Origin: an uncultured Clostridia bacterium | GTDB taxonomy: Bacteria > Bacillota > Clostridia > Oscillospirales > Ruminococcaceae | Length of the DNA: 62,355 bases | Reading direction: 5' to 3' | Assembly (NCBI GenBank): GCA_947627455.1 | Contig: CANQWC010000012.1 | Span: 1 to 62,355 of the forward strand | Shown here: positions 349 through 33,301 of the stretch, piece after piece | How the letters are laid out: each line of letters starts with the position of its first letter | How positions within the stretch are numbered: position 1 is the stretch's first letter | Notes under the pieces: model-generated | Told to the model about the DNA's origin: nothing | The model's database searches: none | The model's input: the letters and a program-made list of their open reading frames with translations, nothing else | Made by a program: the position numbers and the translations under genes

Positions 349-618
349 ATGAAAGAACTGAATGACAAGGAATCGGAAACGGCGGCGGGCGGAATCGCAT
401 ATGCAAAAAAGCGCCCCGATATTCGCTGCGAGCGCGGCTGCTTCGTTGACGGCGGCGCCGCAAAATCGTATTGGGCCTGCAAGGAATGCGGCACCCGCGT
501 TTCAATCTATAAGCTCGGAGCGATCGTCTGCTCTCATGTCGAGAATGAATACGACTATGCTCTCGACTGCTCAAACTGCAAGAATTACAGCGAAGAGCTC
601 GGCGCTTGCGGCTTATAA
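349..618 (+). CDS. Cys-rich RiPP precursor peptide 1 (short GG leader)
   Basis: The start is the ATG at 349, six to nine bases after AAGGAGG (334-340); it gives 89 residues. The first 15 residues form an acidic leader ending ETAAGG, which fits a double-glycine cleavage site for a C39 peptidase exporter. The remaining core has eight cysteines, including YWACKEC, CSH and the end motif CSNC-x9-C. The WxCKxC...CxH...LDCxNC...C pattern recurs in peptides 2 and 3, so the three are paralogs. It lies 17 bp before the radical SAM gene, which probably modifies it. The modification could be a thioether cross-link; the alternative is a metal-binding Cys knuckle. The class is inferred from leader, cysteines and neighbours; I do not recognise a named family. 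Confidence 0.75.
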   Translation: MKELNDKESETAAGGIAYAKKRPDIRCERGCFVDGGAAKSYWACKECGTRVSIYKLGAIVCSHVENEYDYALDCSNCKNYSEELGACGL

Positions 619-635
619 AACCTGCGGAGGAAAGT

Positions 636-2063
636 ATGAAATACATTCTTAATAAAGACATCGCGCTGAGAAGCTGGCAGCTTGTGCCGTTCGCATATTA
701 CAAATACGGGATAAGGCGCGCACAAAAGCTCTCATCTGATGATTTTCTTCTCCTGATAACCTGCGACGGCAAGAACGAGCAGGATCAGAATTCAGAGGCG
801 ATAAAGCACCTTTCGGCGCACGGGCTTATTCACCCCGCAAGCGAGGGCGAAGAGCTTGGCAGCTGGCAGAAAGTAAGGTTCTGCGACAACAGATATATGC
901 CCGGCGTGAACCGGTCGATAACGGGCAAGTGCAACTACAATTGCAAGCACTGCTTCATGGCGAAGGACAATGCCGCGCTGATGAGCGAATTCACTTGGGA
1001 AGAGATGCTCTCGGTGCTCGATGATTTTGATAAGTGCGGGATCCAGACCATCGAGCTTACGGGCGGCGAGCCTTTTCTTCCCCCGCATTTCATGGACCTT
1101 ATCAGGGAGATCGCCCGCCGAAGAATGGACATCGATGAGATTTTAACGAACGGCGCGTTCATCACCCGAGATATTCTTCGCGAGATAAAGTCGCTCGGCT
1201 TCAACCCCCTTGTCAAGATATCCTTTGACGGGCTTACGCATCACGACTGGATGAGGGGCGTTTCGGGGGCAGAGCAAAAGGCCCTTGACGCCATCGATAT
1301 GTGCACCTCGGAGGGTATCCGAACGGGCGTTCAGATTTGCATACATAAATATAATCTCGACACGCTGTTTGAGACCGTAAAGCTTATGGCTGAAAAGGGC
1401 GCGGAGTGGATACGGGTGATAAGAACCTCCGAATCTCCGCGATGGGAAGAAAACGCCCCCGATGCCTGCCTCAGCATTGAGGAATATTTCGACATCGCCG
1501 TCGACCTTCTCACAAAATACGCGAAGGCAGGGTTCAAAGCAACGCTTGTCCTATGGCAGGTCGCCGACTACTACCCTTATGCAAACGCTTACAGGCTTGT
1601 TCCCGTCGACTGGTCGGGAAATGAGGAAAAAGACCTCAGCAGGCCGACCTGCACGGGGGCAAGGGGCTCGATGGCGATAGCTTCGGACGGAAGCGTCGCG
1701 CCCTGCAACCAGATGTCGGGATTTTTCGCAAAGCACGGGTACGACCTCGGCAACGTCAAGAACGGCGTTCAGCCGCTTTTGCAGGAGGGCGACTATCTTA
1801 AGAGCATACTCCTGCCTGTATCAAAGGTCCTCGAAAACCCCGTCTGCTCGGCCTGCAAATATCGCAGATACTGCCTCGGCGGCTGCCGCGCCATCGCGGG
1901 AATGTTGGGCGAATATATGGGCCCCGACCTTTCAAAGTGCGAATTCTTCAACAAGGGCTACTATCAAAAGATTCGCCGAGCCTTTGATGAAGCGGGAAAA
2001 GAATGCGGAAGAGAATTTGTCTGCACGACGGTTGTCGATGCGCTTGAAGAAAAAATTGATTAA
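636..2063 (+). CDS. Radical SAM/SPASM peptide maturase
   Basis: A 475-residue enzyme. The ATG at 636 follows GGAGG at 626-630, which favours it over the TTG at 606. Cys99, Cys103 and Cys106 form the CxxxCxxC motif (CNYNCKHC) for the 4Fe-4S cluster that cleaves S-adenosylmethionine. TGGEP follows as expected. The last 130 residues hold a SPASM-type Cys set (PCNQ, CSACKYRRYC, GGCR, SKCEFF) that binds auxiliary clusters. Residues 1-85 are a separate domain that could be a leader-recognition (PqqD-like) fold; that is a guess from position. It sits among six Cys-rich double-glycine peptides, as radical SAM enzymes do in sactipeptide and ranthipeptide loci. The probable role is making peptide cross-links at Cys residues in the cytoplasm. 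The exact reaction cannot be read from sequence. Confidence 0.88.
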   Translation: MKYILNKDIALRSWQLVPFAYYKYGIRRAQKLSSDDFLLLITCDGKNEQDQNSEAIKHLSAHGLIHPASEGEELGSWQKVRFCDNRYMPGVNRSITGKCNYNCKHCFMAKDNAALMSEFTWEEMLSVLDDFDKCGIQTIELTGGEPFLPPHFMDLIREIARRRMDIDEILTNGAFITRDILREIKSLGFNPLVKISFDGLTHHDWMRGVSGAEQKALDAIDMCTSEGIRTGVQICIHKYNLDTLFETVKLMAEKGAEWIRVIRTSESPRWEENAPDACLSIEEYFDIAVDLLTKYAKAGFKATLVLWQVADYYPYANAYRLVPVDWSGNEEKDLSRPTCTGARGSMAIASDGSVAPCNQMSGFFAKHGYDLGNVKNGVQPLLQEGDYLKSILLPVSKVLENPVCSACKYRRYCLGGCRAIAGMLGEYMGPDLSKCEFFNKGYYQKIRRAFDEAGKECGREFVCTTVVDALEEKID

Positions 2064-2076
2064 AGGAGAGATCGCC

Positions 2077-2376
2077 ATGAGTGAACAGATCATCACAAAA
2101 AGAGAACTTACGGACGAGGAGCTCAGTAACGTGTTCGGCGGCGGCATCTGCGACATGAGCGAGCCGAACATAGTATGCAAGTGGGGAAAATTCAGGTTGC
2201 CGCCCTACTCGGATTGGCGGTGCAAGGAGTGCCTCAAGCCCATCAACAGGGTACTCTCGAATATGTATGCCGCCTGCTCTCATGCAGAGGAACATTGGGA
2301 TCTTCTTGACTGCACGAACTGCGCGGACTGGGACCCTGTCGCGAACGAATGCAACACTCATCACCGATATCTCTGA
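2077..2376 (+). CDS. Cys-rich RiPP precursor peptide 2 (short GG leader)
   Basis: 99 residues from the ATG at 2077, which has AAAGGAGAG just upstream; it begins 13 bp after the maturase stop. The 22-residue leader carries ELTDEELSNVFGG, the classic acidic double-glycine form. The core has eight cysteines with DWRCKEC, ACSH, LDCTNC and a last Cys ten residues later. Aligned with peptides 1 and 3, it keeps every Cys of the WxCKxC...CxH...LDCxNC-x9-C pattern. It is probably modified by the upstream radical SAM enzyme and exported by the C39 transporter further along. It lies in the same operon as the maturase. Confidence 0.75.
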   Translation: MSEQIITKRELTDEELSNVFGGGICDMSEPNIVCKWGKFRLPPYSDWRCKECLKPINRVLSNMYAACSHAEEHWDLLDCTNCADWDPVANECNTHHRYL

Positions 2377-2388
2377 GAGGTGAAAGCC

Positions 2389-2715
2389 ATGACAAAGGAA
2401 GAGTTTATCAGCAGCGCGAAAAAATCGCATGAGCTTTCAGAGGAAGAAATCAGCAGAATAAGCGGCGGCAGCACGGACTATATCCCGATTAAGCCGACGT
2501 TAAAGTGCCCTCTTGATGAGCTCATGCCGATTGAAGGCCTGACCTACTGGACCTGCAAGGTCTGCTACAATATAATCATCAGCGAGCCCGAATGGGAGGA
2601 CCTTTACGGCTGTATTCACGCAAAAAACTGGGGAGTCCTTGACTGCTCAAACTGCTATTATTGGGACGCGGCTAAGCAAGTCTGCTCGGGCGCACCTCAA
2701 AAAGTACACGGCTGA
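2389..2715 (+). CDS. Cys-rich RiPP precursor peptide 3 (short GG leader)
   Basis: 108 residues from the ATG at 2389, preceded by GAGAGGTG; a GTG three codons upstream is possible but poorly spaced. The leader of 27 residues ends ELSEEEISRISGG. The core has seven cysteines: one early, then YWTCKVC, CIH, LDCSNC and a terminal Cys. It is the third member of the peptide 1-2-3 set, with high divergence between the Cys positions. That pattern suggests selection on the Cys scaffold rather than on the loops. The C-terminal tail after the last Cys (SGAPQKVHG) is unique to this copy. Confidence 0.75.
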   Translation: MTKEEFISSAKKSHELSEEEISRISGGSTDYIPIKPTLKCPLDELMPIEGLTYWTCKVCYNIIISEPEWEDLYGCIHAKNWGVLDCSNCYYWDAAKQVCSGAPQKVHG

Positions 2716-2743
2716 CGTATAAAAACGAAAGGGGATTTTTGTT

Positions 2744-3079
2744 ATGACCAACGAAGAAATGATCGCAAAGGCAAAAGAAGCGGGCAGCGCCGATGAGCTT
2801 GTTGCCCTCGCGAAGAAAAACGGCAAAGAGCTTTCGGCTGAACAGGCCAACGTTCTCTTCGGGAAGCTTCACCAAAGCGGCGCGCTCTCGGACGACGAGC
2901 TTGATTCCGCAGTAGGCGGCTGCAATTATGTAAGCCCCTCAAGCGTCTGCTCGGTCTGCGGCGGAGATATGGAATGCATCGGCTTCCACCTCTATGACAG
3001 CAACCTTGACCAGCACTACTCGGAATATGAGTGCACCAAGTGCGGGCATATATACGACCTCTATGACTATGTAGGATAA
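2744..3079 (+). CDS. Cys-rich precursor peptide 4 with Nif11-like leader
   Basis: 111 residues. The first 59 form a long, helical, acidic leader of the Nif11/NHLP kind ending SDDELDSAVGG, unlike the short leaders of peptides 1-3. The 52-residue core has six cysteines in a CxxC...C...CTKC arrangement that looks like a small zinc ribbon (SVCSVCGG and YECTKCGH). It lacks the C-terminal CxxC-x8-11-C motif of the other peptides. Nif11-type leaders are the usual cargo of NHLM exporters, matching the export genes at 10.6-16.2 kb. Ribosome-binding site: AAAGGGG at 2728-2734. Confidence 0.75.
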   Translation: MTNEEMIAKAKEAGSADELVALAKKNGKELSAEQANVLFGKLHQSGALSDDELDSAVGGCNYVSPSSVCSVCGGDMECIGFHLYDSNLDQHYSEYECTKCGHIYDLYDYVG

Positions 3080-3090
3080 GGGGGAAAACC

Positions 3091-3522
3091 ATGAATCAGG
3101 AACTCATTAACAGGGCTAAAGCTGCGAAGTCGCCCGATGAGCTTTTAAAGATGGCTCATGAAAGCGGGATGGAAGATTTCACCGAGGAAAGCGCCAAAGC
3201 CTATTATGATTTGTTACATAAAAGCGGCGAGCTTTCCGATGACGAGCTTGATTCCGCTGCGGGCGGCTGCAAAAAGGGCGGAAGAAGAATCGTCACGGTA
3301 GGTCTTGACTGCCCGGGCTACTCAAAAGAAATGAACATGCATTTGTGGAAGTGCGACAAGTGCCAAAAAAACGATGAGGCCTGCAACTGCTACCCAAGCT
3401 ATAACCCCTATCAGTCCAATATTTTACAGCTGGGCATCAAGGACCAGTGCGGGACCTGCGGCTGGTGCACATATGAGCGCGGTATGTGGTACTGCAACAA
3501 CCCGACGGCAAATCAGCTTTGA
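3091..3522 (+). CDS. Cys-rich precursor peptide 5 with Nif11-like leader
   Basis: 143 residues, starting after AAGGGGGA, 11 bp behind peptide 4. The 59-residue leader aligns end to end with that of peptide 4 and closes with LSDDELDSAAGG. The core is the richest in the locus, with ten cysteines: LWKCDKC, CNC, and CGTCGWC followed after eight residues by a last Cys. LWKCDKC matches the WxCKxC of peptides 1-3, so the two leader classes carry related cores. This suggests leader swapping within the operon. It is probably a substrate of the same maturase and exporter. Confidence 0.75.
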   Translation: MNQELINRAKAAKSPDELLKMAHESGMEDFTEESAKAYYDLLHKSGELSDDELDSAAGGCKKGGRRIVTVGLDCPGYSKEMNMHLWKCDKCQKNDEACNCYPSYNPYQSNILQLGIKDQCGTCGWCTYERGMWYCNNPTANQL

Positions 3523-3548
3523 TCCGAAAGAGCATAAGGAGGAGCATT

Positions 3549-3824
3549 ATGAGTTCAGAAAAATTAAACAAGAATAACCCGCTCTCCGAGGAGGAGATCT
3601 CAGAGGTAGACGGCGGAGTGAGATTTGTTCCGCCCACCCCGCCCCCGCGTGACCCCGACGAGCTCTGCGGCACAAAAACGGGCCCGGGCAGAACGGTCAA
3701 ACCCTATGACTGCTGCGGAAAATATCACCCGAAGAACGGCAAGGAAAACGAAACGGCGCAGTGCGAATTCTGCGTTCATTCCTATCAGGTCAGGGGCGGC
3801 GACTACTGCTGCGACCTTGAATGA
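3549..3824 (+). CDS. Cys-rich precursor peptide 6 (short GG leader)
   Basis: 91 residues from the ATG at 3549; AAGGAGG lies just before it. The 23-residue leader ends PLSEEEISEVDGG. The core is proline-rich at its start (FVPPTPPP) and has seven cysteines, with YDCC, QCEFCVH and a final YCC. The end keeps the C-x2-C-x11-C pattern in relaxed form. It is the last gene of the peptide operon and is followed directly by a strong terminator at 3834. Confidence 0.72.
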   Translation: MSSEKLNKNNPLSEEEISEVDGGVRFVPPTPPPRDPDELCGTKTGPGRTVKPYDCCGKYHPKNGKENETAQCEFCVHSYQVRGGDYCCDLE

Positions 3825-3833
3825 GACTAAAAC

Positions 3834-3865
3834 AAAAAAAGCAGGTTTCTTAAAACCTGCTTTTT
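3834..3865. terminator. Bidirectional intrinsic terminator
   Basis: Stem GCAGGTTT/AAACCTGC (3841-3848 with 3853-3860) with a CTTA loop, an A-run before it and a T-run after it. It separates the peptide operon (+) from the phosphatase gene (-) and can serve both. Confidence 0.9.
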
Positions 3866-3882
3866 CATATCGGTTTAAAGTT

Positions 3883-5488
3883 TTATTTTTCCATTCTCCG
3901 ACGATATTTCGGCGCGAGCATCGTGATGTCGTCAAACTGCTCGGCCTCGCCGACAAAGCGGTCGACGTCGGTCTTTACCGCCTCAAGAATCTCCCTCGGC
4001 GAGCCCTTTGCGGCAGAGCTCAGGGCTTTCTGAAGCCTCTCCATTCCGTAGAGGTTGTTGTTGACGTCGGTCGCCTCGGTCACGCCGTCGGTATACCGGA
4101 ATATCTTGTCGCCGGGCTCAAGCATCACGCTGCCCGACTTATAGCGCATATCTTCCATTCCCGCGAGGACAAACCCCGGCTTGATCTTATAGGGTTCAAA
4201 CTCGCCGCCCGCTCGCGATATGAACGGCATTTCGTGCCCGCGTTGACATATCTGAATTCGCCGCTGACAAGGTCGAGAACGCCCTCAAACGCGGTGATGA
4301 ACAACCCCTCGGAGTTAGACGCGCAGAGCATGTTGTTGACCTCGCTGAACACCTCGCCGAGGTCTTCGTTCGGCTCGGTATGGTCTTTTATGAGGGTCTT
4401 GCCGATTACCATGAACAGCGCCGCAGGAACGCCCTTGCCCGAGACGTCGGCCATGACGATGGCAAGGTGAGTGTCATCGACCTGGAAGAAGTCGTAGAAG
4501 TCGCCGCCGACCTCCTTCGCGGGGTTCATGGTTGCATAGATATCGATTTCGGGCCTGCCCGGGAAGGCGGGGAAGATGCAGGGCAGCATCGAAGCCTGAA
4601 TATGCCTTGCGATGTCGAGCTCGGCGCCGATCCTCTCCTTTTCGGCAGTGACCTTGCTGAGGTTCTTGATGTATTCGTCGAGCTCCTTGGCCATGAACCC
4701 GAACGAATCCGAGAGGTCTTCAAGATCGTCGCCCGTGTGAACATCAAGCTTAAAGTTCGCAAGGTTCTCCATATTGTCGCTGACAAGCCCGACCGCAGCG
4801 CCGTGGAGGGTTTTTATCGGGCTGATGAGCGTCTTTCTCAGATAGAAGTAATATGCGCACACAAGCAGCACCAAAACGCCTATCGTGACAAAAACGGTGA
4901 GCCAGATCAGCTGGCGGATCTGCCCGTTTATCATATCCATCGAGATGTCAACGCTCGCGAGGGCGACGGGCTTACCGCTGCTGTCGGGAATGGCCACATA
5001 TGCCGAGGCGAGATAGCCGTACTCATCATTCTCGGTGACAAGAATGGTTCTCTCGGCGTTTACCGCGAACGCCTCATGCATGAGACGATTGCCGTCGCCG
5101 TAATAGGCATCGGCATCGCCAAGGTCGCAGACGCCCTCTTCATCGGGCGCGCCGACGTCCCAGATATAGACCATTGCTCCTCCTCGGGCACGACGACATA
5201 GAAATACTTGATCCCCATGTTCTGCTTGATGTTGAGAAGATAGCTTCCGATCTCGTTATAATATTCGTCCTTCTCGCCGCTGTTATAATATCTTTCGATG
5301 CTGTCGCCGTCGATGTGGTTTGCCGCCGTCGACGCAAGATTAAAGGCAAGGTTCCGATAATACTCCTCCATTCGGTGCCTGAACAGCCCCGAAACCGAGG
5401 GTATCAGCGCAACAATAAGCGCCGCGGCAAGTATCACATGCCCGATTATCAGCTTTTGCTGAAGACTGATTCTCCGTGTTTTTTTCAT
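3883..5488 (-). pseudogene. PP2C/RsbU-like phosphatase, two frameshifts
   Basis: A membrane-bound SpoIIE/RsbU-type serine phosphatase split over three frames. Part 1 (5488 to about 5170) has one membrane helix and the start of an extracellular sensor. Part 2 (about 5170 to 4240) has the rest of the sensor, a second helix, a HAMP-like linker, a coiled coil and the PP2C core (GGDFYDFF, MADVSGKG). Part 3 (about 4236 to 3883) ends the domain with YTDGVTEA and DDITML. Each break is repaired by one extra base: near 5171, and at 4236-4240, where a C restored in GGGC turns NAGTKC into NAGHEMP, the normal family sequence. Such enzymes dephosphorylate STAS antagonists, and a STAS protein lies at 14320. 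Either a recent pseudogene or assembly indels. Confidence 0.85.
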
Positions 5489-7191: not shown

Positions 7192-7292
7192 AGCCGAAAG
7201 CTTTGTGCTATAATTAGCCATCTTTTGCGGTTCCCGACGAAGTCGGGGAGCAAAAGGGCGAATAAAAATAAATTATAATAATCGCTTGCGAT
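7192..7292 (-). repeat. Inverted copy of the 114-bp repeat
   Basis: The reverse complement matches the left-edge unit almost base for base, including the TTCGTCGGGA hairpin and the AATCGCAAGCGATT hairpin. It covers about one unit. Its left end forms the upstream region of the MATE gene; its right end runs directly into recombinase codons at 7293. Confidence 0.9.
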
Positions 7293-10580: not shown

Positions 10581-12791
10581 ATGTCAGGGGTGTGTATTGG
10601 CGCAGTGAAATCGAAGAAAGCAGCAGTTAAAAGCCCCGTCCGAAAGGGCGTGGCAAAGGTCCCTGTCGTAATGCAGCTTGAAGCGCTCGAATGCGGTGCG
10701 GCTTCGCTTACGATGATCTTGGCATACTTCGGCAAATGGATTCCTCTTGAACAGGTCAGGGCCGACTGCGGCGTCTCTCGCGACGGCTCAAACGCAAGAA
10801 ACATCCTCAAAGCCGCAAGAAGCTACGGCCTTATCGCGAAGGGCTATCGGTATGAACCCGAAGAGCTTCGCAATGAGGGCAAATTCCCCTGCATAATTCA
10901 CCGGGATTTCAACCACTTTGTCGTACTCAACGGTTTTCGCGGCAATAAGGCATATCTCAACGACCCCGCAAAGGGCAGCTATTCCGTCACGATGGAAAAG
11001 TTTGACAACTCGTTCACGGGCATCTGCATGATGTTCGAGCCGAGCGAGACCTTTGAACCCGGCGGAAAACAGAAGAGCGTCCTTGACTTTGCAAAGAGCA
11101 GGCTTAAAGGCGCGGGCGCGGCGATAGCTTTCACCGTGCTGACAACGCTTATCTCCTCGCTCATCGGAATAATCAACCCCGCGTTTTCAAGAATCTTCCT
11201 TGACCGCCTGCTGACTCACCGCAACCCCGAGTGGTTCGGGCCGTTCATTGTCGCCCTTTCGGTGATGACCGCGGCTCAGCTTCTTGTCCTGCTGATTCAG
11301 GCCTCGATGTCACTCAAAATCAACGGAAAGATGGAGGTCTACGGCTCGAGCACCTACATGTGGAAGGTGCTGAGAATGCCGATGGAGTTCTTCTCTCAGC
11401 GCATGGCGGGCGACATTCAGCAGCGCCAGTTCACCAACGCGAGCATCGCGAACACCCTCGTGAACACCTTTGCGCCGCTCGTTCTCCAGACGATAATGAT
11501 GATCTTCTATCTCGTCGTGATGATAAGATACAGTTGGATTTTAACCCTTGTCGGCATCGCCTCGATTTTCCTGAATCTTATGATGTCGAAGCTTATTTCA
11601 AAGAAGAGAATAAACCTCTCCCGCGTGCAGATGCGCGACTCGGGAATGCTCGCCGCCGCAACAGTCGCGGGAATCGAGATGATCGAGACGATAAAGGCCT
11701 CGGGCGCCGAAAACGGCTATTTTGAGCGCTGGGCTGGCTATCAGGCAAGCTCGAACGCCCGGTCGGTCAAGTTCACAAAGCTGAACCAGCTGCTCGGCAT
11801 GGTTCCCGCTCTCGTCTCTCAGGTCACAAGTATAACCGTCATGATCCTCGGCGTAAAGCTCACGATTGACGGAAGCTTCACCGTCGGTATGGTCATGGCT
11901 TTCCAAGGCTTTTTGGGCTCGTTCACAAGCCCTGCGATGACCCTTATCTCCGCAGGGCAGACGATTCAGGAGATGCGCACCCGGATGGAGCGCGTCGAAG
12001 ACGTCATGCAGTACCCGACCGACGTCAACTATGACAACGAGCCCGAGGACGACGCCAAGGAGTATGACAAGCTCTCGGGCGCGCTTGAAATGAAGCACGT
12101 CACCTTCGGCTATTCAAAGCTTTCAGACCCGCTTATCGAAGATTTCAACCTAAGCCTGAAGCCCGGCTCAAGGGTTGCGTTCGTCGGCTCGTCGGGCTGC
12201 GGAAAATCGACGCTTTCAAAGCTCATCTCGGGGCTCTATCACCCATGGAGCGGCGAAATTTTATTCGACGGCAAGCCGATGAGCGAAATAGACCGCTCGG
12301 TGTTCACGGGTTCTCTCGCCGTTGTCGATCAGGACATAATCCTCTTTGAGGACACCATCGCGAACAATATCCGCATGTGGGACAACTCGATCGAGGACTT
12401 CGAGATCATTCTTGCCGCGAAGGACGCCCAACTTCACGAAGACATAATGCTTCGCGACGGCGGCTATAACTACAAGCTCACCGAGGGAGGAAAGGACCTC
12501 TCGGGCGGGCAGAGGCAGAGAATGGAAATAGCCCGCGTTCTCGCTCAGGACCCGACAATAATCATTCTTGACGAGGCCACCTCCGCCCTCGACGCAAAGA
12601 CGGAATACGAAGTCGTCAAGTCGATCAAGGACAGGGGCATAACCTGCATAGTTGTCGCCCATAGGCTTTCGACCATTCGCGACTGCGACGAAATAATCGT
12701 TCTCGACAACGGAAAGGTCGTCGAGCGCGGCACTCACGACGAGCTCTACGCCAAGGGCGACTATTATACCGAGCTCGTATCGAACGAATAA
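10581..12791 (+). CDS. NHLM-type ABC exporter with C39 peptidase domain
   Basis: 736 residues from the ATG at 10581; a GTG at 10605 has the better ribosome-binding site (AGGGGTG) and may be the true start. Residues 30-150 are a C39 cysteine peptidase with Cys38 (ALECGAASL), His112 (FNHFVVL) and Asp128 (NDPAKG). A six-helix export domain follows (about 175-450). The ATPase has Walker A GSSGCGKST, LSGGQRQR and Walker B IIILDEATSALD. The family cuts leaders after Gly-Gly and exports the core. It is complete and is the most likely exporter for the six peptides at 349-3824. First gene of a six-gene operon. Confidence 0.93.
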   Translation: MSGVCIGAVKSKKAAVKSPVRKGVAKVPVVMQLEALECGAASLTMILAYFGKWIPLEQVRADCGVSRDGSNARNILKAARSYGLIAKGYRYEPEELRNEGKFPCIIHRDFNHFVVLNGFRGNKAYLNDPAKGSYSVTMEKFDNSFTGICMMFEPSETFEPGGKQKSVLDFAKSRLKGAGAAIAFTVLTTLISSLIGIINPAFSRIFLDRLLTHRNPEWFGPFIVALSVMTAAQLLVLLIQASMSLKINGKMEVYGSSTYMWKVLRMPMEFFSQRMAGDIQQRQFTNASIANTLVNTFAPLVLQTIMMIFYLVVMIRYSWILTLVGIASIFLNLMMSKLISKKRINLSRVQMRDSGMLAAATVAGIEMIETIKASGAENGYFERWAGYQASSNARSVKFTKLNQLLGMVPALVSQVTSITVMILGVKLTIDGSFTVGMVMAFQGFLGSFTSPAMTLISAGQTIQEMRTRMERVEDVMQYPTDVNYDNEPEDDAKEYDKLSGALEMKHVTFGYSKLSDPLIEDFNLSLKPGSRVAFVGSSGCGKSTLSKLISGLYHPWSGEILFDGKPMSEIDRSVFTGSLAVVDQDIILFEDTIANNIRMWDNSIEDFEIILAAKDAQLHEDIMLRDGGYNYKLTEGGKDLSGGQRQRMEIARVLAQDPTIIILDEATSALDAKTEYEVVKSIKDRGITCIVVAHRLSTIRDCDEIIVLDNGKVVERGTHDELYAKGDYYTELVSNE

Positions 12792-12803: not shown

Positions 12804-14279
12804 ATGGGCTGGTTCGACGAACAGATACGCGAGAGAAAGAAAAGCGATAAACAGGTCTTTGAGGAAGCGTTTTTGACCCTCTCCGATGCTGTCACGGACA
12901 AAAAGGAATCCCTTATATTCTCCGACGGCTCCGAGCGCTCGATGAACGCCGTCTCCGATGTTCTGAAATTCTATCACATAAAGCCGAGGGATGTCCCCGC
13001 GGGCATAAAGGATTTCAACGAGCAGCTTGAATATATTCTTCGGCCCCACGGAATAATGCACCGCACCGTCAGGCTTGAAAAGGGCTGGTACTCCGTGATT
13101 TCCTCTCTTGCTCAGATGAAGATATCGAAGCGCTCGATGGAAATCGGCGCAAAGGAAAGCGGCATGGGCTATTCGATAATCTCGGGTATCCAGAAGATAA
13201 AGCTTGCGGGCGCCGAAAAAAGGGTGTTCGCGAAGTGGGCAAAGTCCCATGCACACGAGGCGCAGATGAGATATAACCCGCCCGCATATATAAAATACAG
13301 CGGCGTCATCTCGTCGCTCATCTCCTCCGTCGGAATGATCGTGATGTACTACGCCGCCGTCGAGAGCGGCATCTCCGTCGCCGATTACTACTCGTTCAAC
13401 ACCGCCTACGGAATGGTTTCGGGCGCGTTCAGCTCGATAGCGGGCATCGCACTCACCGTCGCGAACATAAAGCCTGTTCTTGAAATGGCAAAGCCCATTC
13501 TCAACGCCGTTCCCGAGGTCTCGGAGGGCAAACAGGTCGTCACGAGGATTGCGGGAGGGATCGAGGTCAACAACGTATCCTTCCGCTATAACGACAACAT
13601 GCCCAATGTTCTTGACAACCTCTCGCTGAAGATAACCCCCGGCCAGTACGTCGCGATAGTCGGCACAACGGGCTGCGGAAAATCAACGCTTATGAGGCTT
13701 CTTTTGGGGTTTGAGACGCCTCAGCGCGGCGCGATTTATTACGACGGCCGCGACCTCTCCACCCTCGACCTCAAATCGCTGCGAAGAAAAATCGGCGTGG
13801 TGATGCAGAACGGTAAGCTCTTTACGGGCGATATCTACTCGAACATCATCATCTCCGCGCCTCAGCTCTCGCTTCAGGACGCGTGGGAAGCCGCCGAGCT
13901 TGCGGACATCGCAGACGATATCCGCGCCATGCCGATGGGAATGCACACCCTTATTTCCGAGGGTTCGGGCGGAATCTCGGGCGGGCAGAGGCAGAGGTTT
14001 ATGATCGCAAGGGCGATCGCCCCCAAGCCGAGAATACTCATGCTCGACGAGGCGACCTCGGCGCTTGACAACCTCACGCAAAAGAAGGTCTCTCAGTCGC
14101 TTGACAGCCTTAAATGCACAAGAATAGTCATCGCCCACCGCCTTTCAACGATAAAGCAGTGCGACCGCATAATCTATCTTGAAAAGGGCCATATCGTTGA
14201 AGACGGCACCTATGACGAGCTTATCGCCCTCGGCGGAAAGTTCGCCGAGCTGGTCGAACGCCAGCGCCTTGATACATAA
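12804..14279 (+). CDS. Second NHLM ABC transporter, internally deleted
   Basis: 491 residues with GGGGGTGA before the start. Residues 1-95 match the N-terminal accessory domain of the second NHLM exporter subunit. The sequence then jumps from LEKGWY to SSLAQMKISKR, deep in the membrane domain, leaving about two helices before a complete ATPase (GTTGCGKST, ISGGQRQR, LMLDEATSALD). Family members have about 230 more residues here, including the first four membrane helices. Reading frame is kept across the join. As it stands it cannot form a normal exporter half, so it is either non-functional or now works only as an ATPase. The C39 protein may act as a homodimer instead. Confidence 0.85.
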   Translation: MGWFDEQIRERKKSDKQVFEEAFLTLSDAVTDKKESLIFSDGSERSMNAVSDVLKFYHIKPRDVPAGIKDFNEQLEYILRPHGIMHRTVRLEKGWYSVISSLAQMKISKRSMEIGAKESGMGYSIISGIQKIKLAGAEKRVFAKWAKSHAHEAQMRYNPPAYIKYSGVISSLISSVGMIVMYYAAVESGISVADYYSFNTAYGMVSGAFSSIAGIALTVANIKPVLEMAKPILNAVPEVSEGKQVVTRIAGGIEVNNVSFRYNDNMPNVLDNLSLKITPGQYVAIVGTTGCGKSTLMRLLLGFETPQRGAIYYDGRDLSTLDLKSLRRKIGVVMQNGKLFTGDIYSNIIISAPQLSLQDAWEAAELADIADDIRAMPMGMHTLISEGSGGISGGQRQRFMIARAIAPKPRILMLDEATSALDNLTQKKVSQSLDSLKCTRIVIAHRLSTIKQCDRIIYLEKGHIVEDGTYDELIALGGKFAELVERQRLDT

Positions 14280-15237: not shown

Positions 15238-15720
15238 ATGCCTGAAAACAATTCCATTTTCAGAAAAAAGAGCCTTGAACGGGTCACATCGCCCGAACAG
15301 CTCAACGACTACATCAGGGTCGCGACGCCCGGGGCGTGGATGATCCTTCTTGCCATCGTGATCTTCCTCGTCGGAATGATCATCTGGGGCGCGGTCGGAA
15401 GGCTTGAAACAAAGGTCAGGGGCGCCGCCGTGATAAGCGACGGAAGCGCGCTGATCTATGTTTCGGAGCATAGCGCCGCTAACGTCAAAGAGGGGCAGAC
15501 GGTTCGGGCCAACGGTGCCGAATTCACCGTCAGGAGCATTTCACAAAAGCCTGTCTAGCTTGATTCAAGCGCCGACAGCTACCTTGTTCACGCGGGCGGC
15601 TTTGAAGAGGGCGAGTGGGTATATACCCTCACCGCCGACGCACCCGCCGCCGAGGGCGGAACCTATCAGTGCGAAGTCGTCACCGACAGCGTTTCGCCGC
15701 TCAGCTTTATAATGAATTAA
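15238..15720 (+). pseudogene. Short HlyD-like NHLM secretion protein with in-frame TAG
   Basis: A 160-residue frame from the ATG at 15238. The N-terminal part, VTSPEQLNDYIRV, is followed by one membrane helix (about 36-57) and a small extracytoplasmic beta domain, as in short HlyD/adaptor proteins of NHLM clusters. Codon 107 (15556-15558) is TAG, after SISQKPV, and the same frame then continues for 53 family-like codons (HAGGFEEGEWVYTLT, SVSPLSFIMN) to TAA at 15718. It is probably a CAG or GAG to TAG mutation. If TAG stops translation, the domain is cut in half. This is the second in-frame TAG in the locus. Confidence 0.8.
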
Positions 15721-21012: not shown

Positions 21013-23979
21013 CTATGCATTCCTCAGGCTCTTATAAATCTCTTCAGTAAATATTCCCAATACCTGCTTCTTTACGTTGTCATCGCTTAGCAGCAGCGAG
21101 AAGAAGTCCTGATTCTGCGAAAGCCCCTCGATCAGTGCGTCGTCGATGTCGTCAAAATATGAAAACTCAAAGTCTTTGACCGTGTTGTTTTTGGCACTGG
21201 TTTTCAGCTTTTCCGACTTCAGAAGAATATCCCGAATCTGAAGCATCGCCTTTACCGCCACGTCGTTGTCATAATTCTTTCCCATTCGGCTGTTGATTTC
21301 GGCGATGATCTCAGACAGCCGTTCTTCTTTGGCGGGAGTAAGACCGAAACTTTCCGCGGTCGGGAGCTTTACAGCAGGCTTGGCAACAAGATCGGATTCA
21401 ATATGCTCTTCTGCTTTTTTCTGCACGAAATTGGTCGCCCTGATTTTTCCGTCAAGGTTATATCCGCCGCCGGGGTGCTTGATGTCGATATATCCCATAA
21501 GGCAGTTGATGAAGTTGTATTTCTTGTGAAGCTCGATGTCTTCAAAGCAGGAGACTTGAAGCAAAAATTCGTAGAACCTTATGAAGTGCCGCATCATCAA
21601 AACGATCTCGTTTTGTTTGATAAGATCATATTTTTCAATCCAGTTTTTCGAGCGCTCAAAGTAGACTTTAAGCCGTTTCTTATCGTCAGATGTTATTTTA
21701 TCTTTATACAAAATTTGGTTTGCTCTTTCTATGTCGTCTGGATCAAGAACCGCGTAAGCGTCTATATTCGCTTCAAGGTCGTAAATTGCCGTAGGCGTTA
21801 CCGAATTTGAGAGCAGCGTGGTGGTGTAATAAGGAGCAAAGGCGCTTGTGATGTCCTCATAGCTGTTTACAAAGTCGAGTATGAATGTCTTCTTATCATA
21901 CGGCGGGCAGACCCTGTTTAATCGCGAAAGCGTCTGCACCGCAGATACGCCTTTCAGCTTTTTCAGCACATACATAGCGCAGAGTTTCGGTTGGTCGAAT
22001 CCGGTCTGGTATTTATTTGCAACAAGCAGGACCTGATAATCGTTTTTGTCAAATTCTTTCGGCAGTTTATCCTCCGAGAAACCGTTCATAGACGCTTCGG
22101 TGTATTCCGTATCGTCGCCGGGCAGCGTTACTTTTCCCGAAAATGCTACAAGGGCTTTGATGTCGTTGTAGCCTTTTTTCTTGGTGTATTCTTCAAAAGC
22201 CTGACGGTATTTTACCGCGCCTTGCCTTGATGCGGTAATCACCATAGCTTTTGCCATGCCGCCGAGTTCGTTCATGACCGACGTGCGGAAATGCTCGACT
22301 ATTACCTCTACGCGCTGGGCGATGTTTGTTTCGTGCAGCTCCACAAATCTGGCAATCTGACGCTTTGCGTCGGAGGTTTTGCAGCGCGGGTCCTCTTCGA
22401 TTTCCTTGTTGATCTGATAGAATGTCTGGTATGTGGTGTAGTTTTGCAGCACGTCGAGGATAAATCCCTCCTCGATTGCCTGCTTCATAGAATAAATGTG
22501 GAACGCCTCTCGCTGACCCTTTGTGTTAAGGCGGCCGAAAAGCTGTATCGTCGTGGGTTTGGGAGTGGCTGTAAAGGCAAAAATAGACACGTTTGCCTGC
22601 TTGCCGTTTTTGCGGATCTCATCGGTAATCATATCCTCTACGTCGTCATATTCCTGCTCGCCAGCACCGAGAGATTGCGTTACAGCCGCCATATCCTTGC
22701 CTGCGGTGGAGGAATGTGCTTCGTCAATGATAACGGCAAAGTGCTTGTTTTTAAGGCCCTTTACATTGTCAACAATAAACGGGAATTTCTGTATCGTCGT
22801 TGCGATGATTTTTGTGTTGCCGTTGAGGGCGGCAGCAAGGTCGGCGGAGTTGCACTTGTCGTCCATGACGCGGATAAGCCCCGCTTTATGCTCAAGACCC
22901 AAAATCGCGCTTTGAAGCTGCCTGTCAACTACAACTCGGTCGGTCACAACTACTATATTGTCAAAAATAATCTTGTCGTTCGCATCGTGGAGCGATGTCA
23001 GGCGGTGAGCGAGCCAAGCAATAGAGTTGGTCTTTCCAGAGCCTGCGCTGTGTTGAATGAGATAATTCTGCGAGGTGCCATTCTCGCGAACATCGGCAAG
23101 GAGCTTTCGGATAACGTCTAACTGATGATAGCGCGGGAAGATTATATTTTCAGAACGCTTGATTTTGCCGGTTTTGTCGTCTGTGGATTCTTTTGTCTGG
23201 ATAAATACAAACTTGCCGAGAAGGTCGAGGACGGTGTCCTTTTTCAGAATATCCTTCCACATATACGAAACGCTGTAATCATCTTTGCAGACAGGGTTTC
23301 CCGCGCCTGCGTCAACGCCTTCGCCCTTGCCCATATTGAATGGCAGGAAATAAGTGTCTTTGCCGTTGAGCCTTGCGGTCATATAGACCTGCTCCAAATC
23401 CATCGCGAAATTGACAAGGCAGCCCGCCTTGAACAGAAACAGCCTCGACTTCGGGTCGCGTTCCATGCGGTACTGATACATCGCGTCCTGATATGACTGC
23501 CCCGCGAAGTTGCACTTAAGCTCGAACGACATAATCGCAAGACCGTTTAAGAATATAACAAGGTCGATGCGCTCGTTGTCGTTTGCCCGGACCTCCTCCA
23601 TAACCGAGAAAATGTTCTTTTCATACTTTTCGGTGAGCGACGGATTAAAAGCGGTCGCGGGCTTTGTATACATCAGCGTGAGGGTTATATTTGAGATCTC
23701 AACGCCGTGGCGCAGAACATTCAGAAGACTGCCGCGTTCCTTTACCGCTTCGGAGTTGATAAAGCCGACGAGCGTTTCCTCAAGTCTGTTGGTGTAGATT
23801 TTTTGCAGAGCCGACATCTCATCGGGCTGGGTATCCCGGAGGAATTTAAATAGCAGCTCGCGATCCATAGCAAAGCGGCTGTCGAAGTTTGCGGCCTTGC
23901 GGACTATATAGCCGTCGTCCGTAACAAGGCGTTCCATTATGTAGTGCTGGTATTCCTTTTCGGTCATTATGTTATTCAT
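21013..23979 (-). CDS. hsdR: Type I restriction enzyme R subunit
   Basis: 988 residues from the ATG at 23979, which follows AGAGGTG and overlaps the end of hsdS by 8 bp. The N-terminal nuclease has DLVIFLNGLAIMSFELKC, a PD-ExK-type site. The helicase has Walker A HSAGSGKTNS, DEAH box IIDEAHSS and FTATP, with motif VI GVSAVQTLSRLNR. It moves DNA and cuts it when HsdS detects unmethylated sites. The stop is TAG at 21015-21013; the same frame continues for 31 sense codons, including KCPFCGSEM, before TGA at 20919. Complete otherwise. Confidence 0.95.
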   Translation of the reverse strand: MNNIMTEKEYQHYIMERLVTDDGYIVRKAANFDSRFAMDRELLFKFLRDTQPDEMSALQKIYTNRLEETLVGFINSEAVKERGSLLNVLRHGVEISNITLTLMYTKPATAFNPSLTEKYEKNIFSVMEEVRANDNERIDLVIFLNGLAIMSFELKCNFAGQSYQDAMYQYRMERDPKSRLFLFKAGCLVNFAMDLEQVYMTARLNGKDTYFLPFNMGKGEGVDAGAGNPVCKDDYSVSYMWKDILKKDTVLDLLGKFVFIQTKESTDDKTGKIKRSENIIFPRYHQLDVIRKLLADVRENGTSQNYLIQHSAGSGKTNSIAWLAHRLTSLHDANDKIIFDNIVVVTDRVVVDRQLQSAILGLEHKAGLIRVMDDKCNSADLAAALNGNTKIIATTIQKFPFIVDNVKGLKNKHFAVIIDEAHSSTAGKDMAAVTQSLGAGEQEYDDVEDMITDEIRKNGKQANVSIFAFTATPKPTTIQLFGRLNTKGQREAFHIYSMKQAIEEGFILDVLQNYTTYQTFYQINKEIEEDPRCKTSDAKRQIARFVELHETNIAQRVEVIVEHFRTSVMNELGGMAKAMVITASRQGAVKYRQAFEEYTKKKGYNDIKALVAFSGKVTLPGDDTEYTEASMNGFSEDKLPKEFDKNDYQVLLVANKYQTGFDQPKLCAMYVLKKLKGVSAVQTLSRLNRVCPPYDKKTFILDFVNSYEDITSAFAPYYTTTLLSNSVTPTAIYDLEANIDAYAVLDPDDIERANQILYKDKITSDDKKRLKVYFERSKNWIEKYDLIKQNEIVLMMRHFIRFYEFLLQVSCFEDIELHKKYNFINCLMGYIDIKHPGGGYNLDGKIRATNFVQKKAEEHIESDLVAKPAVKLPTAESFGLTPAKEERLSEIIAEINSRMGKNYDNDVAVKAMLQIRDILLKSEKLKTSAKNNTVKDFEFSYFDDIDDALIEGLSQNQDFFSLLLSDDNVKKQVLGIFTEEIYKSLRNA

Positions 23980-25243
23980 TATTCGGCACCTCTTTCTTTC
24001 CCGTTACATACTCAAAAATGAGCGATTTTTTGTATTCTTCGATTGTGCTGATCTGCTCGCGCTTTTGGCTGATTATTCCGTCTATCTCGGCGCATTTGGC
24101 GTCGAGGTAGTCGGCGATGGCTTTTTGCTCACCGACCGGCGGAACGGGAACTTGTATTGCCCCAAGCTGTTCTTCCGTGAGGGAGTGCCTTAAATTCTTC
24201 GCCATATGCAAAAGCTCTTTGGTGAAATCTAACATCAAATAATAGTAGTAATAATAATTTGCGGTAGCGTTATTATGTAATATAAACTGGCTATATGCCG
24301 GACTTGTCAAACCATTGCTATTGATAATTCCTATACAACGTGGGGTAACGTCAATATCGAATAAGCACATGAGCAGATTTCCCTTGCGAATTTTCTGATA
24401 CCCGTCAAAGGTTTTCGGCATTTTTCCTCCGGCATCTAAATCCCTTACGATAACACCGTTCATTGTCAAGGAAAGTATATCCTCATTTTGATATATCGGG
24501 CAAATAATTTTTTCCTTGTGCATTATGTACTTATTGGGCATGATTTCCCAATTCTCAGGTATCTCTCCGACCCACTCTATCCCGCTGTCCTTCATCTTCG
24601 CGTCGGGGTTCAGACCCTTTGTGACCGTCTCGGTGATGACCGAGCGCTTATACTGTTCAAGCGTGTCTATCTGCTGCTGAATGTCGGAGGTCAGCGCGTC
24701 GATTTCCGCGCACTTGACGTCGAGGAAAGAGGCTATAAGGCGCTGCTCGGGGAGAGGGGGAAGTGGGACTGGCATTTCACATAGCAGGTCACGTTGGAGT
24801 TCAGTCTGATTAGTAGAGCCTTCAGCCATTTGTGAATTGAAAGTTTCAAAATTGATATAAAAATAATAATATAGAAACTTTGAAATCAAAGATGAATTAG
24901 TTCTTATAATCGTAACATGACCATCAGCAACATATGTTTCATCTTCATTAAAATAAAAAGTTTTTCCCAATACGCCGCCACCGGTGGAAGCTAACAATAT
25001 GTCTTGCTTTTTCAATAATCCTCTGCTTGTTTCAGCAGGCTTAGATGAAAACCGAATATTTGAAGTATCAAAATATCCTTTGCTGAATGTGGCTTGATTC
25101 ACAACTGCCGTAATATTATCATCTATATAATCAGGTGCTGTTCCTCGCTCGCATTTTGTTGTAAGGTATTTTAGTTTTTTCAAGTCCCAATTAGTGGGCA
25201 TTTCTTTTATCCACTCAACCCGGCTGTCTTTCATTATCCTCAT
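23972..25243 (-). CDS. hsdS: Type I restriction-modification specificity subunit
   Basis: 423 residues with the usual two target-recognition domains, each preceded by a WxxxxPxxW-type start (VEWIKEMPTNW and IEWVGEIPENW). Each ends with a conserved helix starting PLPPLPEQRLIASFLD or PVPPVGEQKAIADYLD. The two halves set the two parts of a split DNA target. The first domain is strongly AT-rich, typical of exchanged recognition domains. Its start overlaps the upstream gene by ATGA and its end overlaps hsdR, so translation is coupled. Confidence 0.95.
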   Translation of the reverse strand: MRIMKDSRVEWIKEMPTNWDLKKLKYLTTKCERGTAPDYIDDNITAVVNQATFSKGYFDTSNIRFSSKPAETSRGLLKKQDILLASTGGGVLGKTFYFNEDETYVADGHVTIIRTNSSLISKFLYYYFYINFETFNSQMAEGSTNQTELQRDLLCEMPVPLPPLPEQRLIASFLDVKCAEIDALTSDIQQQIDTLEQYKRSVITETVTKGLNPDAKMKDSGIEWVGEIPENWEIMPNKYIMHKEKIICPIYQNEDILSLTMNGVIVRDLDAGGKMPKTFDGYQKIRKGNLLMCLFDIDVTPRCIGIINSNGLTSPAYSQFILHNNATANYYYYYYLMLDFTKELLHMAKNLRHSLTEEQLGAIQVPVPPVGEQKAIADYLDAKCAEIDGIISQKREQISTIEEYKKSLIFEYVTGKKEVPNNE

Positions 25244-26052
25244 TTCATCTCGCCTTTTCTTTTTGAATATAAATCCTTTATATTTGCTCTCTTTGCTTCC
25301 TTTTCTTTTTTGGCTTTTTGTTCTGCCAAAATGTCTATCAATATCGGCTTTAGAACTTCATAATCTTCACAACACTGTTCTTCCGACATAGTATGTATTC
25401 CGGCACTTAATAGTTTATACAAAGGCAAATATATTTCATCATCTATCGCTAAATAGTCTTTAATTTTATTTAGCTTTTCATCCGAACGCAATTTTTTAAA
25501 GTCTGCCTCTGAAATACCTATTTTGTCTATATTTTGACTAAATATTGATGATAATAAAGCTTCGTACACTCGTCGCATATATGTATACGCAGCGATATAA
25601 TAACCAATACTCGCACATTCTTCGGCTTTATAGAGTTGAGAAAAACTCTCTTTATCAATCAAATCGTTTTTTTGATATTTTTTAAGATTGTCTCTGCTAA
25701 CATCATAAAGTGATGGATATTGTGCCAACTTAATTATTTCATTTTTGATGTAATTATAATAAAACAAATAAAACAGATACTTTTTACAAGTAGGACACCG
25801 ATACACTAAAATTCTTGCTTTTGAATAATTAATACTGTTACTTCTGAATATACCTAACTCATTAATATCTTTCACGGTATCATAAACAAAAGTTTTATTA
25901 TCTTTGCATGTGGGGCAAAACAAGTCCAAAGTATTAGAATAGCCAAAACTTGTAAATTCTACAAAATCATCGTCCGTAACATTGACTACTTTACTGTATA
26001 CACCTTGATTTATCAAAAGATTTCCCAGCGCATTTTTTATTTCTTCTGTCAT
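25240..26052 (-). CDS. HEPN/DUF4145-like zinc-ribbon protein in the hsd operon
   Basis: 270 residues with no name I can give. The first half has two Cys pairs, FCPTCKDN and YRCPTCKKY, that could hold one zinc. The second half is helical and resembles the DUF4145/HEPN group: EECASIGYYIAAYTYMRR followed by a long helix and a late acidic stretch. HEPN domains are often RNases in defence systems, though the R-x4-6-H signature is not clear here. It lies between hsdM (11 bp) and hsdS (4-bp overlap), so it is made with the R-M complex. It is one of the most AT-rich genes in the window. Confidence 0.6.
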   Translation of the reverse strand: MTEEIKNALGNLLINQGVYSKVVNVTDDDFVEFTSFGYSNTLDLFCPTCKDNKTFVYDTVKDINELGIFRSNSINYSKARILVYRCPTCKKYLFYLFYYNYIKNEIIKLAQYPSLYDVSRDNLKKYQKNDLIDKESFSQLYKAEECASIGYYIAAYTYMRRVYEALLSSIFSQNIDKIGISEADFKKLRSDEKLNKIKDYLAIDDEIYLPLYKLLSAGIHTMSEEQCCEDYEVLKPILIDILAEQKAKKEKEAKRANIKDLYSKRKGEMK

Positions 26053-26063
26053 ATTATATCCCC

Positions 26064-28166: not shown

Positions 28167-28339
28167 TTGAATTACCTCGCTTTTATCTGTATTAATAGTA
28201 TTATACATCATCAACTGTCCAAAAGTACGGACTTCTACAAAATAAGATATATATTTTTATTATATCACATATTTGGCAGGTTGGCAATATCCAAAGACAC
28301 AATTAAATGATATTATAAAAGGAAGCGAATTTTTCAAAA

Positions 28340-29390: not shown

Positions 29391-29765
29391 GGAGGCTATA
29401 TATGCCAAAGAAATACAGCACACCCAAGCGCGACATTGTAGTCAAGACCCGAATGACTACAGAAGAATACGCCGATTTCACCGAGCGAGCTAAATTTTGC
29501 GGGATAAGCCAGTCGGAGTTCATACGTCAAGCAATCGAGAATTCAGTTATCAAGCCGATTATCACCGTCTCGCCCGTCAACGAAAAGCTACTGTCAGATG
29601 TCGGTTCTCTAACTGCCCAACTCGGCAGAATCGGCGGCAATCTAAACCAGATAGCTCGGTATCTCAACGAACGCGGGGTACCATATTACACACTTTATGG
29701 TGATGTGCAATCTGCGATTTCCGACCTCTCCGACCTGAAATTTGAAATCTTGCGAAAGGTAGGTG

Positions 29766-33301
<3,536 letters not shown>

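Follow-up and report, generated by a model that had tools for sequence, protein, structure and literature searches.

The precursor operon and its maturase

Contig CANQWC010000012.1 (GenBank assembly GCA_947627455.1), from an uncultured Clostridia bacterium of the family Ruminococcaceae, was analysed over its full 62,355 nucleotides; this stretch, the whole contig of the source genome, is referred to here as the window. The system under study is an operon at positions 349–3824, in which six peptides with double-glycine (GG) leaders and 6–10 cysteines each are encoded on the forward strand together with a single radical S-adenosylmethionine (SAM)/SPASM protein, the putative maturase. This arrangement had been described in an earlier note made from the sequence, with which our coordinates, cysteine counts and enzyme domains (PF04055 and PF13186) agree. 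A ribosome-site-like sequence was found by script before each of the seven ORFs, and the combination of maturase and cysteine-rich peptides is a real and coherent operon that is conserved in relatives. Its features are as follows.

349..618, forward strand: precursor P1, 89 aa, 8 Cys; short GG leader; core frame built from W-x-C-K-x-C, C-x-H and DC-x-N-C
636..2063, forward strand: radical SAM/SPASM maturase, 475 aa; the first 85 or so residues form an N-terminal domain that may bind leaders
2077..2376, forward strand: precursor P2, 99 aa, 8 Cys; short GG leader; core frame as in P1
2389..2715, forward strand: precursor P3, 108 aa, 7 Cys; short GG leader; core frame as in P1
2744..3079, forward strand: precursor P4, 111 aa, 6 Cys; long Nif11-type leader; putative zinc-ribbon-like core at 2921–3076
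3091..3522, forward strand: precursor P5, 143 aa, 10 Cys; long Nif11-type leader; 10-Cys core at 3268–3519
3549..3824, forward strand: precursor P6, 91 aa, 7 Cys; short GG leader; core aligning with cores of a four-Cys frame
3835..3866, reported on the reverse strand: terminator-like hairpin, 3' of the precursor operon

The number of terminator-like sites (three) is not above that in shuffled sequence (mean 5.3), scanning the window against Rfam and for tRNAs gave no matches, and the source genome holds no second copy of the maturase.

The enzyme matches Radical_SAM (PF04055, E 9.4e-20) and SPASM (PF13186, E 2.2e-5) above cut-off, and its CxxxCxxC motif and seven SPASM-type cysteines (C339, C357, C404, C407, C413, C417 and C435) are unchanged across 13 sequences. 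In profile comparison its closest relatives of solved structure are SkfB (5.6e-22), PqqE and SuiB; the folds nearest to its AlphaFold model (pLDDT 75.5, pTM 0.77) are those of SkfB (6efn), the anaerobic sulfatase-maturating enzyme, SuiB and TigE, and EpeE also matches. No NCBIfam model reached its cut-off for any of the seven operon proteins, the maturase being judged on the 25 of 75 matching models listed, and the model search for an already named family of ribosomally synthesized and post-translationally modified peptides (RiPPs), which the earlier note had proposed, accordingly returned none among these models. The character of the enzyme bears on the main rival explanation, that the products are thioether RiPPs resembling sactipeptides or ranthipeptides, in which the cysteines of the core frame are joined to carbon atoms of nearby residues to give a cross-linked product without metal. 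We consider this unlikely, though not strikingly so: the maturase is of SPASM type and its nearest solved relative by both profile and fold, SkfB, is a thioether enzyme, whereas the NCBIfam models for thioether maturases remain far below cut-off (PapB 58.1 of 340, SkfB 65.6 of 300, StsB 64.9 of 625). EpeE is an epimerase and SuiB makes a carbon–carbon bond, and the presence of both among the fold matches speaks instead for a second rival, that the maturase acts on a residue other than cysteine (for example, the aromatic residue two positions before a CxxC knuckle, or the backbone) and that the cores are disulfide-bonded or reduced.

The secondary-structure order of the N-terminal 85 or so residues of the maturase would fit a leader-binding domain: residues 2–67 are predicted to form three strands followed by a helix–strand–helix–strand arrangement, in blocks with pLDDT of 87–94, but of 75–77 at residues 11–30. 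Alignments of the whole model with SuiB extend over 459–480 columns, gaps included, and the N-terminal profile matches PqqD weakly (2.6%, against 0.06–1.6% for 20 column shuffles). Enzyme and peptide are tied directly at the genetic level in locus L010 (10001–11617), where the maturase frame continues into a short-leader precursor to give a fusion of 539 aa.

Leaders and cores of the precursor peptides

Two sorts of leader are present, the short GG leaders of P1, P2, P3 and P6 (15–27 residues) and the 59-residue leaders of P4 and P5. The latter resemble the Nif11-type model TIGR03798, with E 7.1e-6 and 26.2/27.7 bits for P5 and E 1.3e-3 and 19.0/20.6 bits for P4, in both cases below the cut-off of 32.3; no match to this model was listed for P1–P3 or P6. 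The cut-off was passed in 6 of the 21 genomes searched, among which G428, G044 and G020 do so at maturase loci with knuckle cores. Twenty-three maturase loci were scanned (duplicates and L043–L045 excluded) for peptides that fit the GG-leader pattern and whose cores hold three or more cysteines, GG precursors with fewer than three being excluded by design, and near-copies were removed. Eighteen loci contributed to the resulting set of 112 (111 non-redundant sequences plus P6), which comprises 79 long-leader and 33 short-leader precursors, one of them (L039:8788–9060) cut at the wrong GG; L014, L022, L046, L048 and L049 contributed none, the precursors of L022 and L048 coming from separate scans. 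Individual loci encode as many as 20 (L019), 17 (L011) and 13 (L017) cysteine-rich precursors. A loose ELSDEEL..GG pattern precedes the core in 94 of the 112, a count that is partly circular in that the GG-leader pattern chose the set. Core lengths range from about 32 to 108 aa, most cores having paired CxxC motifs: at least two were found in 70 of the 79 long-leader cores, compared with a mean of 13.7 and a maximum of 22 of 79 in 300 shuffles, and a cysteine directly follows the GG in 65 of the 79. Among long-leader precursors, leaders were more alike than cores at all six loci tested, with medians of 45–72% and 20–31%, respectively.

By eye, P1–P3 have a common core, W-x-C-K-x-C ... C-x-H ... 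L-D-C-x-N-C-x9-C, and five of the six precursors, P4 being the exception, have the ending C-x2-C-x(8–11)-C; both patterns had been pointed out in the earlier note and both are seen as given there, the shared scaffold on the translations. Alignment of P1–P3-type cores (n=5) yields, in order, C, W-x-C-x2-C, C-x-[HC], C-x-N-C and one final C, with seven cysteines invariant. At the eighth position four sequences have His and one has Cys, and because of this composition we read it as a probable metal ligand, exchange of His and Cys being usual between metal ligands. The scaffold is rare, with a clear match in the source genome only among 395 family genomes (two weak matches resemble rubrerythrins by eye). 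It is not isolated, however: it recurs behind Nif11-type leaders at L011 and L013, and the profile of P1–P3-type cores matches that of P5-type cores (hhalign 93.7%, E 1.9e-7), so that it is a short-leader form of a wider core frame. The idea of an isolated scaffold was therefore rejected. In P5-type cores (n=27) the invariant cysteines follow the same order, and many of these cores end in C-x2-C-S-Y-E-x-G-x-W-x-C-N-N, the corresponding end of P5 being C-x2-C-T-Y-E-R-G-M-W-Y-C-N-N. P6-type cores (n=21) have the arrangement C ... C-x2-C ... C, with cysteine in 19, 21, 21 and 18 of 21 sequences at the four frame columns. The alignments thus support an eight-position Cys/His frame in the P1–P3 cores, which P5-type cores appear to share less completely, and a four-Cys frame in P6-type cores.

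The P4-type cores also point to a metal site. This set of 20 sequences from several loci was hand-chosen for two CxxC pairs, and in the alignment the cysteine columns alone are invariant, with two CxxC column pairs in 20/20; exactly four cysteines besides the first are present in 15/20. When the profile of P4 and 19 relatives was compared with solved structures, the RPA12 zinc ribbon was the best match (E 1.4e-7), followed by other zinc-binding chains (211 chains at E up to 1, of which the best 60 were inspected), whereas a control in which the cysteines were kept and the rest shuffled gave a best E of 2.3e-3 and 22 chains. Nine of the 20 cores are matched by Zn_ribbon_8, and nine by a transposase zinc ribbon, at E up to 0.1, while no zinc-ribbon family matches more than one of the 20 shuffled cores. 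These comparisons support a zinc-ribbon-like P4 core with four putative ligands. For the other types, P1 matches Zn_ribbon_6 (PF07191) with E 1.2e-4 and 22.4 bits, below the cut-off of 25, and the best match of the P1–P3 profile in the Protein Data Bank (PDB) is 0.09. Profile comparisons between P4-type and P1–P3-type cores (28.6%) and between P5-type and P6-type cores (5.5%) are weak, and a single common ancestor of the cores is for this reason not supported.

The earlier note had offered two options for these peptides, thioether cross-links and metal binding, and it is the latter that gains more support from the sequences, through the zinc-ribbon matches of P4-type cores and the ligands of the frames. 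Read in this way, the cores are most likely small metal-binding knuckle peptides, with zinc as the most likely metal, and metal-binding cores are favoured over thioether peptides. Cysteine alone is common to all aligned core types, as thioether formation would have it, and acceptor residues do differ between known peptides, according to the part of PMC8326336 available; yet this explanation fails to predict the zinc-ribbon-like residues other than cysteine, the exchange of His and Cys and the four-ligand counts. Action of the maturase on a residue other than cysteine would be in keeping with the 8.8-fold enrichment of Trp two residues before CxxC in long-leader cores, where an aromatic residue occupies this position at 63 of 177 CxxC motifs. 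However, no such residue is conserved in all aligned core types, zinc ribbons, too, commonly have an aromatic residue ahead of the second knuckle, and we regard this rival as distinctly improbable.

Export genes and distribution of the system

An exporter of the NHLP type is encoded further along the window, on the same strand.

10581..12791, forward strand: NHLP exporter subunit 1, C39 peptidase–ABC protein; TIGR03796, 919.7 bits (above the cut-off of 853.3); PF03412, E 1.5e-32
12804..14279, forward strand: NHLP exporter subunit 2, shortened by 246 residues relative to its homolog in L021
15238..15558, forward strand: presumably an HlyD-like secretion partner, named from its N-terminal sequence

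Subunit 2 scores 536.7 bits against TIGR03797, below the cut-off of 709.4, which the L021 relative passes with 718.2; genes similar to the ORF at 15238..15558 adjoin NHLP exporters in L021, L040, L048, L049 and L050. Because P4 and P5 have Nif11-type leaders and the C39 exporter lies on the same contig, the chassis is of the known Nif11/NHLP kind, and the description of the operon as an undescribed system was too strong.

Maturase relatives were found in 7 of 197 family genomes (E 1e-30 or better), 14 of 394 order genomes (1e-50) and 5 of 392 class genomes (1e-100), the source genome being counted each time; these draws overlap, and some of the order hits (L043–L045) lie outside the main maturase clade. 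A scan of a species collection gave 13 maturase loci, 12 from Clostridia and one from Coriobacteriaceae (taxon as in the record title). Many relatives, including L017, come from metagenome-assembled genomes titled 'Lapin', which we take to mean rabbit gut. Cysteine-rich peptides are present beside the homologous maturases of close relatives, as the earlier proposal had required. In a maturase tree of 25 rows (midpoint root only), the main clade comprises 18 rows with support of 88/95, and knuckle precursors occur at 17 of these 18 loci (16 labelled on the tree, plus L022). Fifteen of the 17 have at least two CxxC motifs in one core and two (L041 and L022) have one; the sole exception in the clade, L014, is a contig of 3.5 kb with about 300 bases before the enzyme. 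Outside the main clade, L042, L046 and L049 have other cores, no precursors were seen in the scan of L043–L045, and L050 has knuckle cores, so that the knuckle label requires three changes on the tree, a number as low being reached in 3 of 500 shuffles. At L022, the Coriobacteriaceae contig, a GG peptide (4494–4868) with the knuckle W-W-H-C-H-C-N-H-C-G follows a maturase of 32% identity. At L042 (3426–4733) a related maturase, also of 32% identity, adjoins Nif11-leader-like peptides of a different type, with C-x-C and GGGG-rich cores.

The exporter was found (E up to 1e-150) in 20 of 194 family genomes, in 13 of them over cut-off. Six of the family's seven genomes with a maturase have it, G044 being the exception, compared with 14 of 187 others (Fisher p 3.7e-6, the draws of 197 and 194 genomes being treated as one set), and in a direct check a TIGR03796-type exporter was present in 10 of the 18 genomes that encode the maturase. 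As a specificity control, eight genomes with NHLP but no maturase were used; Nif11-leader matches were obtained only in G094 and G144, so that this control rests on three peptides, all with cysteine-poor cores.

Proposed pathway, known systems and neighbouring genes

We propose, with a probability of about 0.5, that the locus encodes a leader-guided peptide library on a Nif11/NHLP chassis, with metal-knuckle cores that are tailored by one radical SAM enzyme and exported. A precursor would be recognized through its leader, either of full Nif11 type (P4 and P5) or reduced to a segment resembling the leader end, E-L-S-D-E-E-L-x4-G-G (P1–P3 and P6), and would dock on the single radical SAM/SPASM maturase. 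The enzyme would then tailor the core, probably at or beside a cysteine, because the cysteine pairs are the sole feature common to all core types, and the C39 ABC exporter, which scores above cut-off, may cleave after the GG and export the core.

Several observations count against this proposal. On the side of the enzyme, the leader-binding domain (RiPP recognition element) was not confirmed by sequence, the N-terminus giving no notable Pfam or PDB match. As regards the cores, P4 alone reaches no Pfam cut-off; a fold search with the model of P1, which is of moderate quality (pLDDT 71.9, pTM 0.63, five sequences), gave no match (best E 6.7); P6-type and P5-type profiles give only weak matches, to eL42 (0.0011) and bL36 (0.053), respectively; and the eighth frame position of P5-type cores is Cys in 15, His in one and another residue in 11 of 27 sequences. 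CxxC pairs are also found in some sactipeptides. The precursor and P4-type counts are partly circular because the sequences were chosen by the GG pattern and at least three core cysteines, and by two CxxC pairs, respectively, and cysteine-poor GG precursors do lie beside or close to maturases (L018 has several, L039 and L047 one or two each). Cysteine-poor peptides with Nif11-type leaders are present also in G003, G200 and contig C20 of the source genome, so that the knuckle cores are linked to the locus and not to the leader. Finally, with up to 32 candidates scored in each genome, 8 of the 18 with a maturase gave no TIGR03796 match, a C39 exporter lies beside the maturase in 9 of the 20 loci listed, and in the source genome itself four neighbouring genes are broken by comparison with L017 and exporter subunit 2 is shortened.

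The chassis and the pairing of its leader with a radical SAM enzyme are known. Nif11/NHLP leaders and their exporter have been described, with a radical SAM enzyme as sole maturase for some (PMC2887384 and PMC3023750, in the portions available), and the accessible part of PMC4289311 lists anaerobes whose Nif11/NHLP clusters include radical SAM genes and also names Eggerthella lenta, with cores of 50–59 aa, in its list of clusters. The N11P/NHLP systems (TIGR03798 with TIGR03796/03797) resemble the present one in a leader ending ELSDEEL..GG, a variable core, large paralogous sets and a C39 exporter. They differ in that their operon enzyme, as far as the text of PMC2887384 at hand describes it, is LanM or a cyclodehydratase, where here it is a radical SAM/SPASM protein, and in that the cores here, about 32–108 aa long, mostly have paired CxxC motifs and are in some cases zinc-ribbon-like; moreover, the leaders in the window do not reach the TIGR03798 cut-off, and all that many precursors retain is the segment resembling the leader end. 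Systems in which a radical SAM enzyme is the sole maturase (TIGR04064 and TIGR04103; excerpts of PMC3023750 and PMC4289311) are alike in the predicted pairing of a Nif11-type leader with a SPASM-type enzyme. However, the window maturase scores 71.1 bits against TIGR04103, the nif11-class radical SAM maturase model, and so does not reach its cut-off of 725, the 25 of 75 NCBIfam matches listed for it do not include TIGR04064, and zinc-ribbon cores go unmentioned in those excerpts.

Prochlorosins (ProcA/ProcM; PMC10783134) offer a further parallel, with one enzyme serving many Nif11-leader precursors of variable core, the cores diversifying while the leaders are conserved, but they are lanthipeptides made by a ProcM-group enzyme. 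No such enzyme was seen among the genes covered, in a survey that did not extend to a LanM elsewhere in the genome. Ranthipeptides (SCIFF, freyrasin) and sactipeptides (SkfA) likewise have cysteine-rich precursors, a leader and a radical SAM enzyme with auxiliary clusters, as judged from the part of PMC8326336 available, whereas here no model is matched at cut-off and paired knuckles, zinc-ribbon-like residues, a Nif11-type leader and an NHLP exporter are found. The zinc-ribbon domains of RPA12, RPB9, TFIIB and eL43 are similar, at the level of the profile, to P4-type cores in knuckle spacing and surrounding residues, the latter being, by contrast, export cores behind GG leaders that adjoin a radical SAM enzyme. 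In the open-access literature no report was found that combines Nif11 or RiPP with a zinc ribbon or zinc finger and a radical SAM enzyme, a search for zinc ribbon with bacteriocin gave none about such peptides by title, and zinc-ribbon-like cores, short-leader forms and the unnamed maturase clade were not found in print.

We suggest, tentatively, that the system may form a distinct RiPP class, whose product would be a folded metal-binding mini-protein and in which a fast-changing library of zinc-ribbon-like and double-site knuckles is served by one radical SAM/SPASM tailoring enzyme and by Nif11/NHLP export; it would occur in Clostridia and in one coriobacterium or more. The usual picture of a RiPP core is that of a short unfolded chain; if the suggestion is correct, radical chemistry would here act on or beside metal-binding mini-proteins, and these Clostridia would have a combinatorial repertoire of metal-binding peptides that they secrete. 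The metal-site and thioether readings predict different masses and metal content.

Between the precursor operon and the exporter lie the following genes, the first four of which appear broken by comparison with their L017 orthologs.

3886..5488, reverse strand: SpoIIE-type phosphatase, broken into three frames; intact L017 ortholog matches PF07228
5542..5871, reverse strand: formyltransferase-like, broken (first 110 of 275 residues aligned); L017 ortholog matches PF00551
5906..7131, reverse strand: MATE transporter–HATPase fusion, broken (middle missing, frame changed); L017 ortholog matches PF01554 and PF13581
7975..8679, reverse strand: LytTR response regulator with an internal stop; L017 ortholog matches PF04397 and PF00072
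8703..10364, reverse strand: GHKL-type histidine kinase; 58% identity to the L017 kinase, which matches PF14501

L017 keeps the gene order from phosphatase to exporter, with other genes interspersed, up to exporter subunit 1, where that locus ends. These breaks, the shortened exporter subunit 2 and the location of the cluster next to a tandem repeat at the end of the contig would all be in keeping with the cluster being a remnant in the source genome, with peptides and maturase still open but export lost, an explanation that is compatible with the other readings. We nevertheless think it quite doubtful, since the maturase and six precursors are open and have ribosome-site-like sequences, and dN is lower than dS for P4, P5 and the maturase in comparison with relatives: P5 and its L020 relative (71% identity) gave dN 0.23 and dS 1.47, and P4 and its L013 relative (49% identity) gave dN 0.50 and dS 2.03, dS being near saturation in both. 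Such relatives, together with the CxxC counts against shuffled cores, also indicate that the peptides are not products of chance. The broken genes may, moreover, reflect assembly error, and the explanation concerns the strain and not the family. The repeat is a 114-bp unit in 2.8 tandem copies (98% matches) at positions 1–322, the contig start, and a core piece of it occurs inverted at 7201.

Some further observations concern related loci and the rest of the window. The Nif11-leader peptide on contig C20 of the source genome (L058:1339–1677), which was not counted, has a single cysteine, right after the GG, in its otherwise cysteine-poor core. In L018 (5506–9827) the interval that separates exporter and maturase contains two additional radical SAM genes along with cysteine-free, Nif11-leader-like peptides, and a small gene that by eye resembles a sigma factor is found near the precursors of L016 (7034–7408), L018 (4700–5065) and L021 (9106–9474). 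Elsewhere in the window, positions 21013–28214 and 29402–33301 hold genes that by eye resemble a type I restriction system, followed by a relaxase-like and a serine-recombinase-like gene.

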